A DNA stretch of 64,000 nt from an uncultured Acidobacteriia bacterium (lineage in GTDB: Bacteria > Acidobacteriota > Terriglobia > Bryobacterales > Bryobacteraceae): positions 1 through 64,000 of the forward strand of contig CAIQWJ010000059.1 of assembly GCA_903875575.1 (NCBI GenBank), in the 5' to 3' direction. Below the pieces are notes generated by a model. That model had not been told where the DNA came from. It ran no database searches and saw nothing but the letters and a program-made list of their open reading frames with translations. Of this stretch, positions 53,935-62,539 are shown in pieces (position 1 is the stretch's first letter; every line of letters begins with the position of its first letter). The position numbers were made by a program, and so were the translations under genes.

Positions 53935-54969
53935 TCATCGACAAAGCTGTTCCAATCCCCATTTTCCATGGTCGGCCACGAGGGGGTCAGGGGAGGCGGC
54001 CAGGCTTTCAAGGGCAGGCCGGAATTTGGCGTCACCGGAGTTGCCCATCGCGACCGCCACATTGCGCAGGAAGGCGGAATGTTTCGCGCGGCTGACGGCG
54101 GTCTGGCGAAAACGGGCGCGGAATTCGGCTTCTGACAGGCTGGCCAGTTCTTCCAGCGTGGTAGCCGCGTCTGGATCTACCGAAGCCGGGACGTCGCGGT
54201 TCCACGGACAGACATCCTGGCAGATATCACAGCCAAATACGTTATCTCCAATGGCTTCAAGGTGTTCCGCCGGTGCCGGACCGCGGAGTTCGATGGTGAA
54301 GTACGAGATGCAGCGGCGGGCATCGAGTTCGAAACCGCCATCGGGCGAGGGGACCAGCGCCTGTGTGGGGCAAGCGTCCAGACAGCGGGTGCAGGTGCCG
54401 CAGCGATCCGGCGGGGGGGCGTCCAGCCCTGGGTCCGGGGTGATTTCGAGCGTGGTAAGGAGTTCGCCCAAAAGACAAAACGAACCCGATTCCTGGTTGA
54501 TCAGGCAGGTATTCTTGCCAATCCAGCCGAGACCGGCGTCGCGGGCGACGGATCTTTCCAGCAAGGGGGCGGTGTCGACACAGGCGCGCCATTCGAAGGC
54601 CGCGTGCTCCTGCAAACCGGCGGCGAGGGCTTCGAGGCCGCGTCGGATCACCACGTGGTAGTCCGGCCCCTGGGCATAGCGGGCGATGCCGGCTGTGCGC
54701 TGGGAATCGGCGTAGGACAGCCCAACTGAGATAACGGATTTCACGCCGGGCAGCAGATTCTCGAACTGGGCGCGGACCTGGGCGCGGTGGTCGGTCAAAT
54801 AAGCCATCTCGCCAGCCAAGCCACGGTCCACCCAACTCATGTAACGGGCAAAATCAGGGGCTGAACGGGCCGCATTTGGCACGGCCACCACTCCAGCCAG
54901 GTGGAACCCGACTTTAGCCGCTAACTCGCGGACGAGATGACTACTTACGCGCTGTGTTACAATTTCCAC
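53935..54969 (-). CDS. queG: Epoxyqueuosine reductase QueG
   Basis: 344 residues. Cobalamin/iron-sulfur enzyme with LERSVARDAGLGWIGKNTCLI near 145 and two 4Fe-4S motifs, CGTCTRCLDACPTQAL near 195 and CDICQDVCPWN near 248. It reduces epoxyqueuosine to queuosine in tRNA. The C-terminal helical repeats follow as in the family. Confidence 0.94.
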   Translation of the reverse strand: MEIVTQRVSSHLVRELAAKVGFHLAGVVAVPNAARSAPDFARYMSWVDRGLAGEMAYLTDHRAQVRAQFENLLPGVKSVISVGLSYADSQRTAGIARYAQGPDYHVVIRRGLEALAAGLQEHAAFEWRACVDTAPLLERSVARDAGLGWIGKNTCLINQESGSFCLLGELLTTLEITPDPGLDAPPPDRCGTCTRCLDACPTQALVPSPDGGFELDARRCISYFTIELRGPAPAEHLEAIGDNVFGCDICQDVCPWNRDVPASVDPDAATTLEELASLSEAEFRARFRQTAVSRAKHSAFLRNVAVAMGNSGDAKFRPALESLAASPDPLVADHGKWGLEQLCR

Positions 54970-55113: not shown

Positions 55114-55127
55114 ACCTGATATCAGGT
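55114..55127 (+). promoter_or_regulatory. 14-bp perfect palindrome before the radical SAM gene
   Basis: ACCTGATATCAGGT, 42 bases upstream of the ATG at 55170. Its position fits an operator. An A/T inverted repeat (TTTTTT-GATCG-AAAAAA) lies about 40 bases further upstream. Confidence 0.5.
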
Positions 55128-55169
55128 GTAGTGCGGACGTCCTCAAGCACTTCAGGAGAGCAAGAAACT

Positions 55170-57290
55170 ATGTCAAAAGCGATCAAAGCAGCGGAAAAAG
55201 CAGTCACGGTTGCGGCCGGTGTGGCATGGAACGCGTTTAACGCGCTGAATTCCATCAAGCAGAACCCGTCGTTTACGCCGAAATGGTCTGAGAAGCCGCT
55301 GTTGAAATCGTGGGAAAAGCAGAAGCCGCCACTGGGCTGGCCCCGCACCACGGATTCGCTCTGCCCGGTTTGCGTCCCGGAGATGCGCAAGAAGATTCTG
55401 GACGGCGAACTGCCGGTGGACGTACTCCGCACGGAGAAGATGGGCGAAATCAAGGCCCAGATCATCGAGCGCGACGGCAAGATCCTGATGGTGAAGGATT
55501 GTCCGATTCACGGCCACTTTGAAGACGTGATGGCGATGGATCCGGCGTTCCTGCAGAAAGTGGAACGCGTATTCCCGGGCCGCGACATTCGCGCCCACAA
55601 CGATAAAGATCTCCACAACCACGGCTCCTCCACAGTGACCCACGGTCGCGGTTCGGTACTCACCATCGATCTGACGAACCGCTGCAACATGATGTGCGAT
55701 CCCTGCTTCATGGATGCCAACCAGGTCGGCTTTGTGCACGAACTGAGCTGGGAAGACATCCAGACGATGCTGGACAACGCGATTTCGATCAAGCCGCGTC
55801 GCCAGATGTCGGTACAGTTCTCCGGCGGCGAGCCGACGCTTTCGCCGTACTTCCTGGACGCTGTTCGTTACGCCCGGAAGGTGGGCTACAACAGCGTGCA
55901 GGCCGCGACCAACGGGATTGAGTTCGCGAAGAGCCCCGAATTCTGCCGCAAGGCGCAGGAAGCTGGTCTGCGTTACGCTTATCTCCAGTTCGATGGCATC
56001 GGCAACGCGGCGAATTCCCACCGCGCCATCGGCAACCTGTTTGACGTGAAACTGCGTGCGATTGAGAACCTGCACTCGAACGGCGTGGACATTGTTCCTG
56101 TCATCACGATCATCAACGGCGTGAACAACGAGCAGGTGGGCCGCGTGATTCAGTTCGCGCTGGACAATCCGAAGAAAATTTCGTTCCTCTCGTTCCAGCC
56201 TGTATCGTTCACGGGCCGCGACGAAGAGATCACGCCGGAACGCCGGGAAGCACAGCGCTACACGCTTTCGCACCTGGCGCACGACGTGAAGAACCAGATC
56301 GGCATGGGCGAGCCCACGCGCGACTGGTATCCGATTTCGTTTATCAGCACGTTCTCCGACTGGTCGGATCTGGTGCACGGACCGAATGCCGATTGGGGCC
56401 AGTTGAGCTGCGGCTGCCACCCGAATTGCGGTACGGGTATGGCCGTGATGATCGACAAGGAAACGAAGGAATTCAGCCCGGTGACGGCGTTCCTGAATGC
56501 GGAACAACTGGCGAAGGACATCGCGGCGGTCAACGACGCGGCGCGCGGCAAGTTCCTGACGGTGCTGGGCGGTACGCTGGCACTGCTTCGCAACTACGAT
56601 CCGGCGCAGGCTCCGAGCAGCTTCCGGCTGACCGATTTGCTCCAGAAGTTCGACAAGGGCCTGGGCGCGACGGGCAAGAACTACGGTAAAGTGACGGGCG
56701 ACCGCACCTTTGAAGACATCGAAAAGCGCCGCAAGGATCGCTGGAACTTCCTGTTCATCGCGGGTATGTGGTTCCAGGATCTCTTCAACTACGATTTCCG
56801 CCGCACCGAGCAGTGCATCATTCCGTACTCGACGCAGGAAGGCGAAATCAGCTTCTGCGCTTACAACACGGGCGTGGGCTGGCGCAACATCGTTGAGAAG
56901 ATGCACATGACGGCGACCCTGACCAAGTGGTATGAGGAAAAGGGCCGGCACGAAATCATTGCGGGCGGCAAGGCCGTGAATCTGCCTTCGAAGGATCACT
57001 CGCTGATTCTGGATCCGGTTGCCGTGGCGGCCGGCATTCAGCATGACCTGGACGATAAAGGCATTGCGAAGACGGCCCGCGAAGAGAAGACACGCGCGCG
57101 GAATGAGTCGATGGTGAAGAAGGCCGCTGAGGATGCGAAGATGGCCAAGCTTTACCGCGAAGTAGTGCTCAAGGAAAAGCCGATTGAAGCGGGCTTTGTG
57201 CCGGTGAGCATGCTGGGCGGGATCGCACCGGCTCCGAAGGCGGCAGCCAAGACCGAAGTGAAGGAAGAAGTAGGCAGCTTCGGCGATTAA
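55170..57290 (+). CDS. Radical SAM enzyme of the tetraether/membrane-spanning lipid synthase type
   Basis: 706 residues from the ATG at 55170 after AGGAG. An N-terminal Cys pair in SLCPVCVPEM and CPIHGHFED lies before the radical SAM domain with CNMMCDPC (CxxxCxxC) near 180, SGGEPT near 220 and ATNGIE near 246. C-terminal Cys follow in CGCHPNCG near 420 and QCIIPYS. Layout and motifs match archaeal Tes/MJ0619-like proteins that join lipid tails. In Acidobacteria such enzymes are linked to iso-diabolic acid, the membrane-spanning lipid. The substrate is inferred. A terminator follows 31 bases later. Confidence 0.82.
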   Translation: MSKAIKAAEKAVTVAAGVAWNAFNALNSIKQNPSFTPKWSEKPLLKSWEKQKPPLGWPRTTDSLCPVCVPEMRKKILDGELPVDVLRTEKMGEIKAQIIERDGKILMVKDCPIHGHFEDVMAMDPAFLQKVERVFPGRDIRAHNDKDLHNHGSSTVTHGRGSVLTIDLTNRCNMMCDPCFMDANQVGFVHELSWEDIQTMLDNAISIKPRRQMSVQFSGGEPTLSPYFLDAVRYARKVGYNSVQAATNGIEFAKSPEFCRKAQEAGLRYAYLQFDGIGNAANSHRAIGNLFDVKLRAIENLHSNGVDIVPVITIINGVNNEQVGRVIQFALDNPKKISFLSFQPVSFTGRDEEITPERREAQRYTLSHLAHDVKNQIGMGEPTRDWYPISFISTFSDWSDLVHGPNADWGQLSCGCHPNCGTGMAVMIDKETKEFSPVTAFLNAEQLAKDIAAVNDAARGKFLTVLGGTLALLRNYDPAQAPSSFRLTDLLQKFDKGLGATGKNYGKVTGDRTFEDIEKRRKDRWNFLFIAGMWFQDLFNYDFRRTEQCIIPYSTQEGEISFCAYNTGVGWRNIVEKMHMTATLTKWYEEKGRHEIIAGGKAVNLPSKDHSLILDPVAVAAGIQHDLDDKGIAKTAREEKTRARNESMVKKAAEDAKMAKLYREVVLKEKPIEAGFVPVSMLGGIAPAPKAAAKTEVKEEVGSFGD

Positions 57291-57321
57291 TTCTCGCTTC
57301 GAGCGAAGTCAGTATCAAAAG

Positions 57322-57350
57322 GGCCGTCGGGGCAACCCGGCGGCCTTTTT
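57322..57350 (+). terminator. Rho-independent terminator of the radical SAM gene
   Basis: GGCCGTCGGG-GCAA-CCCGGCGGCC, one U-G wobble, followed by TTTTT. The GCAA tetraloop is a stable GNRA loop. Confidence 0.88.
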
Positions 57351-57388
57351 GCGCACCGTATACTGAATTACATTCCAGAGGAGCCCAG

Positions 57389-60844: not shown

Positions 60845-61516
60845 ATGAACATTCAACAGATTTGGCGCTATCCGGTGAAGTCAATGGCGGGGGAACGGGT
60901 TGACGCGGCCCGCGTGACAGAAGCGGGCATTGAAGGAGATCGGGGCATTCAGGTGCGGAACAAGTCGGGCCGCACGGTGACATCCAGAACTCACCCGCAA
61001 TTGTTTGGCTTTCACGCGACCACGAGTGACAGCGGCGAAGTCTTGATCGACGGACGTCCGTGGGACAGTCCGAAGATTCTGGAGCAGGTACAGCGGACCG
61101 CTGGCCCCGGCGCGCGCCTGGTTCGCGATGAGACGCAGGACCGTTTCGACATACTCCCGTTGCTGGTGGCTACCGATGGCGCGATTGCGGCGTTCGGCCG
61201 GGACGTACGACGGCTGCGGCCAAACATCGTTGTTGGTGGTGTCGCGGGGCTGAAGGAAAGAGGCTGGCAGGGCGGGCAGTTGCTGGTTGGGCACGGAGCC
61301 GAATCCATCGTGATCGGCGTCCATGACCTTCGGGGACGCTGCATCATGACTACCTTCGACCCCGATACACAGTCACATGATCCAGAGGTACTGCGCGACA
61401 TCGTCAAGCGCTTCGGCGGCAAGCTGGCGTTGAACTGCGAGGTGATTCAGGGCGGGGTGATCAAAGTGGATCAGGAGGTGCGCTTTGTCGGTGCGGGAAC
61501 AGGCAGCGAGTACTGA
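60845..61516 (+). CDS. MOSC domain protein (second copy)
   Basis: 223 residues from the ATG at 60845. MOSC N-terminal phrase IQQIWRYPVKSMAGERV and LRPNIVVGG, with a Cys in HDLRGRCIMTTFDPDT. It is shorter and divergent from the copy at 20570-21280, suggesting different partners. Confidence 0.88.
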   Translation: MNIQQIWRYPVKSMAGERVDAARVTEAGIEGDRGIQVRNKSGRTVTSRTHPQLFGFHATTSDSGEVLIDGRPWDSPKILEQVQRTAGPGARLVRDETQDRFDILPLLVATDGAIAAFGRDVRRLRPNIVVGGVAGLKERGWQGGQLLVGHGAESIVIGVHDLRGRCIMTTFDPDTQSHDPEVLRDIVKRFGGKLALNCEVIQGGVIKVDQEVRFVGAGTGSEY

Positions 61517-62027
61517 ACATGCGGCGCGCGAACGATTGCGACGAAGCTTTCGGCCCGCGGCGCTGCGGATTCTATTTGTTGGTGAGTCACCGCCGGCTTC
61601 GGGAAAATTCTTCTATCGGAGAGACTCGGGACTCTACCGTGCGATGCGGGCAGCGTTTCAGGCGGCAGATCCGTCGATCGATGAGGAACATTTTCTGGAG
61701 ACGTTTCGCGCGTGTGGCTGCTACCTCGTCGACCTCTGCCCGGAACCAGTCGACAAGCTGGAGCGCGCAATGCGGGCTGCTATGTGCCGCGAAAGTGAAG
61801 CATTGCTGGCTAATACGATTCGACGGCTGCAGCCGGAGACGATTGCCACCCTGGTGCGTTCCATCGAGGGCAATGTAGCGCGAAGTATTGCGCGAACGGT
61901 TTGGCATGGGCGGGTGATCCAGCTTCCTTACCCCGGAAGATGGGCGCGGCACAGGAGCGCGTTCGCGGGAGAGGTGGCCCCGCTTGTCCGCGAATTGCTG
62001 ACGCACTCTCTGGCTGCGCCCCGGTAG
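61485..62027 (+). CDS. Uracil-DNA glycosylase-like superfamily protein
   Basis: 180 residues from a TTG at 61485 with AGGAGG six bases upstream; a GTG two codons later is also possible. The phrase LRILFVGESPPASGKFFY near 28-45 is the UDG-superfamily nucleotide-binding start. It overlaps the MOSC stop by 32 bases. It may be a nucleotide-binding relative without glycosylase activity; motif C (LHPSP-like) is replaced by LPYPGRWARHR. Confidence 0.7.
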   Translation: MSVREQAASTEHAARERLRRSFRPAALRILFVGESPPASGKFFYRRDSGLYRAMRAAFQAADPSIDEEHFLETFRACGCYLVDLCPEPVDKLERAMRAAMCRESEALLANTIRRLQPETIATLVRSIEGNVARSIARTVWHGRVIQLPYPGRWARHRSAFAGEVAPLVRELLTHSLAAPR

Positions 62028-62053
62028 ACAACACCAGGTTACGATACTTCCGT

Positions 62054-62539
62054 ATGCTCAATCTTCATTCCGTGCCGCTGGCGATTCCGGAAAATGCCAA
62101 CATCATTTTGGGCCAGAGCCATTTCATCAAGACCGTGGACGACCTTTACGAGGCGATGGTGAATTCGTCGCCCGGGATCAAATTCGGCGTCGCCTTCAAT
62201 GAGGCGTCGGGACCGTGCCTCACACGCAGCGATGGGACCGATCCCGAGATGAAGCTGGCGGCGGTCGAGATGGCGACAGCGGTGGGTGCCGGGCATTTCT
62301 TCGCGATCGCGATGCGTGACGCGTTCCCGATCAACGTACTGAAGAGCGTGCAGGCGGCTTACGAGGTTTGCAACATCTTCTGCGCAACGGCGAATCCGGT
62401 GCAGGTGATTGTGGCGGAGACGGAGCAGGGGCGGGGCGTGCTGGGCGTGATCGATGGCTCGTCGCCGAAGGGCGTGGAGACGGATGAGGATGTGGAGAAA
62501 CGGCGCGGATTCCTGCGGATGATCGGTTATAAAAGGTAG
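62054..62539 (+). CDS. Adenosine-specific kinase family protein (PF04008 type)
   Basis: 161 residues from the ATG at 62054; the longer frame from 61901 lies inside the previous gene. Family phrases: NIILGQSHFIKTVDDLYEAM, GIKFGVAFNEASGPCL, and VAETEQGRGVLGVIDGSSPKGVE. The archaeal founding structure has an adenosine-like ligand; the physiological reaction is unsettled. Confidence 0.85.
   Translation: MLNLHSVPLAIPENANIILGQSHFIKTVDDLYEAMVNSSPGIKFGVAFNEASGPCLTRSDGTDPEMKLAAVEMATAVGAGHFFAIAMRDAFPINVLKSVQAAYEVCNIFCATANPVQVIVAETEQGRGVLGVIDGSSPKGVETDEDVEKRRGFLRMIGYKR

Follow-up and report, generated by a model that had tools for sequence, protein, structure and literature searches.

Which enzyme makes iso-diabolic acid, an abundant and unexplained membrane-spanning fatty acid of Acidobacteria, is the question raised by a gene in the stretch of DNA analysed here (the window), which covers positions 1 to 64,000 of contig CAIQWJ010000059.1 from an uncultured bacterium of the Bryobacteraceae. 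An earlier note had read this gene as a radical S-adenosylmethionine (SAM) enzyme of the Tes/MSS type and a candidate membrane-spanning lipid synthase. The 706-residue protein that it described is indeed encoded by the open reading frame (ORF) at 55170-57290 of the forward strand, stop codon included; we refer to it and its close relatives as the long form, and to canonical acidobacterial Tes as the short form. The analysis supported the earlier reading in part. We put at roughly 70% the probability that this form represents a distinct branch of the Tes superfamily in Acidobacteria and acts as a membrane-spanning lipid synthase, coupling the iso-C15 tails of ester phospholipids into iso-diabolic acid. 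This reading is carried by the fold, the ligand conservation, the distribution and the linkage to canonical Tes observed in the genomes.

The best NCBIfam model for the protein was the tetraether lipid synthase Tes (NF045702), with 317.2 bits; this misses the equivalog cut-off of the model (450 bits), and three other long forms scored 290.8-349.7 bits. In Pfam, the protein matched Radical_SAM (6.6e-19) and the HMPTM N-terminal zinc ribbon PF23545 (4.8e-13). A sequence search of the PDB returned MJ0619 GDGT-MAS (7TOL, E 2.4e-63; 30% identity with the window protein) as the sole close match, followed by MoaA at about 1e-5, and a computed comparison with VIA-align showed that the whole GDGT-MAS fold is present in the long form. 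The motifs listed in the earlier note, namely CNMMCDPC (residues 172-179), SGGEPT, ATNGIE and the C-terminal cysteines C549 and C563, were all found. An N-terminal extension that MJ0619 lacks contains a predicted helix at residues 7-27 (55188-55250, forward strand), whose amphipathicity is only moderate (hydrophobic moment, muH, 0.26-0.42); contact of this helix with the membrane is a guess.

To compare the metal ligands, 58 long rows were aligned with 18 short acidobacterial rows, five other radical SAM rows and the MJ0619 core; ligand numbering follows Lloyd et al. 2022 (PMC9433317). All sites lie on the forward strand. The radical SAM [4Fe-4S] cluster motif, C172-x3-C176-x2-C179 (55683-55706), was present in all 58 long rows. 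The first half of the rubredoxin-type iron site, C65-x2-C68 (55362-55373), was cysteine in 57 of the 58, the remaining row having been cut short by its chosen start; in the second half, C111-x2-H114 (55500-55511; MJ0619 C33/H36), the cysteine was invariant and the histidine was replaced once, by glycine (57/58). Within C414-G-C416-H-P-N-C420 (56409-56429), C420 aligned with a ligand of the C-terminal auxiliary cluster, [4Fe-4S]C, and C414 and C416 were extra; all three cysteines were found in 58/58 long rows, and the C416 position was also cysteine in 16/18 short rows. C549 and C563 aligned with further [4Fe-4S]C cysteines, with Y553 (Tyr459 of MJ0619) between them (56814-56858), and M533 (56766-56768) corresponded to Met439, the labile ligand of this cluster (PMC9433317); each of the four was present in every long row. 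The assignment of C420, C549 and C563 as the putative [4Fe-4S]C cysteines is our reading of the alignment, as the passages of PMC9433317 number only Met439 for this cluster. The MJ0619 variants M439A and Y459F/L remain active (Lloyd et al., PMC9433317), and the conservation of M533 and Y553 is therefore a mark of kinship rather than proof of catalysis.

The MJ0619-like layout proposed in the earlier note therefore held for the radical SAM, rubredoxin-type and [4Fe-4S]C ligands and failed at the N-terminal auxiliary cluster, [4Fe-4S]N. The cysteines of this cluster (MJ0619 C73, C77 and C80) were found in none of the 58 long rows, with no cysteine anywhere in the stretch, and were kept in 18/18 short acidobacterial rows. 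The corresponding residues 145-154 (55602-55631) instead carry D145, H149 and H151 in 58/58 rows and S154 in 57/58, so that the C77 position is always histidine and the C80 position is serine in all rows but one. As the N-terminal auxiliary cysteines are absent, one auxiliary [4Fe-4S] cluster and one rubredoxin-type iron are expected, and not a pair of auxiliary clusters. Further, at 32 positions kept in at least 57/58 long rows, the residue that dominates in the short form is another one, or the short form is gapped.

A role as a pterin or other small-molecule enzyme, as the former class D methylase and HMPTM annotation would have it, or as a TrsS-like radical SAM protein, is very improbable in the light of these ligands. 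The zinc-ribbon name and the rank of TrsS (NF045646, 204.6 bits) as second NCBIfam match speak for such a role, although that score is 113 bits under the Tes score and below membership (cut-off 490 bits). The long form retains the M439 and Y459 of Tes, which sets it apart from the other radical SAM rows, and in the passages of Lloyd et al. (PMC9433317) a pterin role was not corroborated and the pocket of MJ0619 was filled with lipid. The pterin methylase reading was rejected on that report and on the ligand pattern. Separately, loci L078-L082 were observed to form an HMPTM-type radical SAM group of 478-525 residues, which lacks Y459 in 5/5 and M439 in 4/5 members and keeps the [4Fe-4S]N cysteines in 5/5.

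A phylogeny, the kind of check called for in the earlier note, was calculated by a quick method under LG+C20; of the 82 rows aligned it used 61, with 21 long rows omitted because they resembled others. MJ0619, the short forms and the long forms were separated together from the five other radical SAM rows with support of 99. The 37 long rows were set apart as a group by a branch with support of 100 and a long stem of 1.65 changes per site. Two deep short rows, L062 and L063, joined the long clade (support 99), in a tree where long branches meet.

The long form is widespread in the phylum. Among 41 genomes, that of the window and 40 relatives, 38 matched the window protein at E 0.001; 35 held the long form (G023 and G017 as fragments only), three held another radical SAM protein only, and three gave no match. 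It was the only Tes-type gene found in the window genome. In a phylum sample of 197 genomes, 114 matched at E 1e-20, with the long form in 94, the short form in 26 and both in nine; within this sample, the long form was present in each of the 23 genomes from the window's class, that of the window counted. Matches at 1e-40 were found in 187/195 genomes of the own family, some by the short form or fragments only. Named GTDB contigs yielded at least 586 confirmed relatives, from which 80 named loci were kept as the basis of the neighbour and strain counts. Their record titles name Acidobacteriota taxa, save for two metagenome-assembled genomes (MAGs; L099 and L105) titled Rhodanobacteraceae, whose long-form genes are 86-88% identical to the query and whose records are probably mislabelled or mixed bins.

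Some variation was observed within this distribution. Most genomes of one acidobacterial family (group f22; L048, L049 and others) contain two long-form paralogues, one about 66-71% and the other 51-53% identical to the window protein. Plasmid-borne copies were rejected, since the 10 plasmid records were weak (22-29% identity) and none reached 80% query coverage. Recoding of TAG in relatives was likewise rejected, as in 6/8 loci the TAG is a normal stop at the C-terminus (about residues 663-702); L180 and L182 each carry a single in-frame TAG inside the aligned part, at about residues 433 and 640, through sequencing error or decay.

The linkage to canonical Tes was then considered. The five short forms scored reached 493-619 bits, above the Tes cut-off. 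Among 300 genomes of the class that were at least 97% complete, 35 had a match above this cut-off (E 1e-130), and 28 of these also held the long form, three of them as fragments. Both genes lay on one contig within 12 kb in 10/28 genomes from eight genera (G321, G333, G467, G563, G449, G520, G585, G147, G105 and G489), on the same strand except in G449. With a generous 24 kb of a 3-Mb genome as the chance level, such linkage would have a probability of about 1e-14 if the genomes could be counted as independent; they cannot. In G321 and G333, queG is followed by the divergent long form and then by the short form; the window has the same queG-long arrangement, with the short gene missing. In G489, which we take to be Koribacter versatilis Ellin345, the two forms are about 11 kb apart and no PF09989 match was found.

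PF09989 (Ger/PlsA) was followed for the ether route; it is not specific for Ger/PlsA, since it was seen in open frames some 1000, 1200 and 1400 residues long. The search of the window genome gave no match, and the Thermotoga maritima control gave one. In the phylum sample, PF09989 occurred in 20/26 short-form genomes versus 11/85 long-only genomes (Fisher p 1.7e-9, for genomes that are not phylogenetically independent). It was unassociated with the long form (20/94 with, 29/103 without, p 0.32) and was found in 18/86 genomes having neither form. In the class sample it occurred in 31/35 short-form genomes versus 3/20 long-only genomes, the latter being the nearest kin that happened to be listed. 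As the window genome has neither a PF09989 match nor canonical Tes, ester-linked iso-diabolic acid is predicted for it, and not branched glycerol dialkyl glycerol tetraethers (brGDGTs). The simplest account is that Ger/PlsA and canonical Tes make ether lipids, and the long form ester-linked iso-diabolic acid. An apparent tetraether gene pair was observed at L070 184-5204 (G204:C20), where a short Tes is followed on the same strand by a 1039-residue BadF/DUF2229 (Ger/PlsA-like) ORF.

It is improbable that the long form itself makes brGDGTs (ether lipids) as the counterpart of archaeal Tes, which the earlier Tes label would suggest. Edaphobacter aggregans, a species with one Tes homologue, produces brGDGT in small amounts (PMC13274423), and at L183 997-6667 (G293:C71) a 1187-residue ORF over a PF09989 match stops 37 bp before the long-form ORF on the same strand, both of which would suit an ether product; yet PF09989 is absent from the window genome, and in the phylum sample it tracks the short form and not the long one.

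Strains of known lipid composition bear on the product of the long form. Thirteen genomes picked from the 80 named loci, 11 of isolates and two Bryobacteraceae MAGs, were searched with the Tes family, and each gave a long-form match (308.8-332.2 bits). Acidicapsa dinghuensis alone had a second strong match (256 bits), all remaining matches being at most 70.7 bits, so that the long form is the single strong Tes-type match in 12 genomes, among them Edaphobacter modestus DSM 18101. Iso-diabolic acid makes up 12-30% of fatty acids in six Edaphobacter strains (Table 1 of PMC11354219), with 30.4% in E. modestus DSM 18101 and 26.4% in E. aggregans DSM 19364. The long form is therefore placed directly in one strain making this lipid, E. 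modestus DSM 18101. The one Tes homologue of E. aggregans, with 32% identity (PMC8941075), fits the long form, a putative match based on the identity figure. Koribacter was reported with iso-diabolic acid tetraesters (PMC13274423), and PMC10087280 contrasts an iso-diabolic acid route with a diether condensation route, two routes that the long-form and short-form gene sets would fit.

These lipid data also bear on whether an enzyme of the Tes family could act on the tails of membrane lipids and yet form another product, such as an intralipid tail-to-tail bond, a glycerol monoalkyl glycerol tetraether (GMGT)-like cross-link, a thiolation or another C-H modification. We regard this as unlikely, though less so than an ether product. 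The fold and the C-terminal cluster are shared with Tes, yet [4Fe-4S]N is lost, the 32 long-specific positions and the long stem mark the clade as divergent, and both forms are retained in 28/35 genomes. Against this stands the strain with 30% iso-diabolic acid, where the long form is the sole strong Tes-type match and a separate coupling enzyme would be needed.

Under the preferred reading of the long form as an iso-diabolic acid synthase, the substrate, product and redox route that we infer follow the analogy of GDGT-MAS; coupling chemistry has been demonstrated in the literature for MJ0619 only. A 5'-deoxyadenosyl radical generated at C172/C176/C179 would abstract a hydrogen at the terminal carbon of a phospholipid iso-C15 chain, and the resulting radical would be parked on the C-terminal [4Fe-4S] cluster (C420, C549, C563 and M533) through a C-S bond. 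A second SAM would then provide a second radical, and the two tails would join to give membrane-spanning iso-diabolic acid. The surface [4Fe-4S]N of archaeal Tes would have been lost, leaving the rubredoxin-like iron as the presumed sole known surface redox site.

A number of observations weigh against this reading. Without [4Fe-4S]N the chemistry may be altered, the window protein falls short of the NCBIfam Tes cut-off, and the Tes score alone cannot place it, because L081, another radical SAM protein and not a long form, scores equally high (321.7 bits). The same-genus genomes G010 and G016 (each given as 96% complete) had no match and G008 (83% complete) had another radical SAM protein only, so that the gene is either dispensable or was missed there; neither form was found in 86/197 genomes of the phylum sample, and 7/35 class genomes carried the canonical form only. 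Glycerol ethers were not detected in PMC11354219, which cites an earlier study describing them. Solibacter usitatus, of subdivision 3, makes brGDGTs but no detectable iso-diabolic acid, although it possesses two homologues of Tes as well as homologues of PlsAR (PMC10087280). A separate enzyme of the T. maritima Mss type may be present in these genomes, and the literature search found no biochemical test of any long-form protein.

The surroundings of the gene agree with the claim that it forms its own transcription unit. It stands alone, with queG divergent upstream (53935-54969, reverse strand; also beside the long-short tandem of G321 and G333) and, downstream, a protein matching the divergent InlB B-repeat (Flg_new_2). 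An operon partner was rejected, since the commonest neighbour families reach just 19/80 and 18/80 named loci. These families, of about 334 and 285 residues (for example L086 1831-2721 and L086 621-1523), lie mostly upstream of the long form, and both are missing from the window. In this count an antisense frame ousted the long-form gene itself in some loci, because overlapping frames were settled by length. A promoter-like site directly upstream of the gene was not listed. Elsewhere in the window, 61901-62539 encodes an adenosine-specific kinase family protein (PF04008, 9.5e-73), whose longest frame overlaps a UDG-like ORF at 61485-62027.

The two flanking signals named in the earlier note fared unevenly. 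The perfect 14-bp palindrome ACCTGATATCAGGT is present upstream at 55114-55127, and only 0.01 occurrences of this word with at most one mismatch would be expected; a perfect palindrome of 14 bp, whatever its letters, should turn up about four times per 64 kb (64000/4^7). It stands at the same place in 2/12 aligned relatives, L007 and, with a paired change, L006, and was rejected as a conserved operator because it is restricted to the closest species. A terminator-like hairpin with a 16-bp stem and a U run within its 3' arm was identified 3' of the gene (57316-57351, forward strand) and stood out in the folding test (-30.3 kcal/mol, z -6.0, equalled by 0/200 shuffles); the simple terminator scan did not call it on the forward strand, listing two sites, both on the reverse strand, versus 3.5 expected by chance.

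Acidobacterial Tes homologues were earlier proposed for membrane-spanning lipids and brGDGTs (Zeng et al. 2022, PMC8941075); the homologues that this study named from Koribacter and Solibacter should, to judge from their identities, be of the short kind. Tes homologues also occur in bacteria not known for biphytanyl chains (Lloyd et al., PMC9433317), and according to PMC11868695 the function of bacterial Tes homologues is unconfirmed. A literature search of titles and abstract openings found no [4Fe-4S]N-less subfamily and no experimental test of an acidobacterial Tes, and the subfamily and its linkages appear to be new. The long form is a strong candidate for the enzyme behind this fatty acid, which reduces the iso-diabolic acid question to a single gene, in a strain that can be grown. 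BrGDGTs are palaeoclimate proxies in wide use, and the predicted division, with ester lipids from the long form and ether lipids from the short form with Ger/PlsA, could help to tell which soil bacteria are capable of making them. More tentatively, the long form might constitute a second class of enzyme for joining C(sp3) to C(sp3) in lipids, one with a reduced set of clusters: an aerobic soil-Acidobacteria branch of Tes in which [4Fe-4S]N was swapped for an invariant Asp/His motif and which turns ester phospholipids into iso-diabolic acid, in some lineages in tandem or partnership with canonical Tes (long for ester, short with Ger/PlsA for ether).

Among known systems, the TrsS radical SAM (seleno)protein has the N-terminal module and the radical SAM core in common with the long form, and its model gives just 204.6 of 490 bits. 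Bacterial Mss, reportedly defined by Sahonero-Canavesi et al. in 2022, is likewise proposed to couple fatty acids tail to tail in T. maritima, a control genome in which no match above the Tes cut-off was found. Models of Mss are said to have the catalytic architecture of Tes (PMC13274423). The short acidobacterial Tes shares with the long form its superfamily and, in 10/28 genomes having both, its gene neighbourhood; unlike the long form, it passes the Tes cut-off (in the five tested), keeps [4Fe-4S]N in 18/18 rows and co-occurs with PF09989. Compared with GDGT-MAS/Tes itself (MJ0619, 7TOL/7TOM; NF045702), the long form lacks the [4Fe-4S]N cysteines, bears extensions of about 55 residues at the N-terminus and about 110 at the C-terminus, and has the invariant Asp/His motif and the CxC; it shares with that enzyme the full-length fold, the radical SAM cluster, the rubredoxin-type site and [4Fe-4S]C with its labile methionine and the tyrosine.
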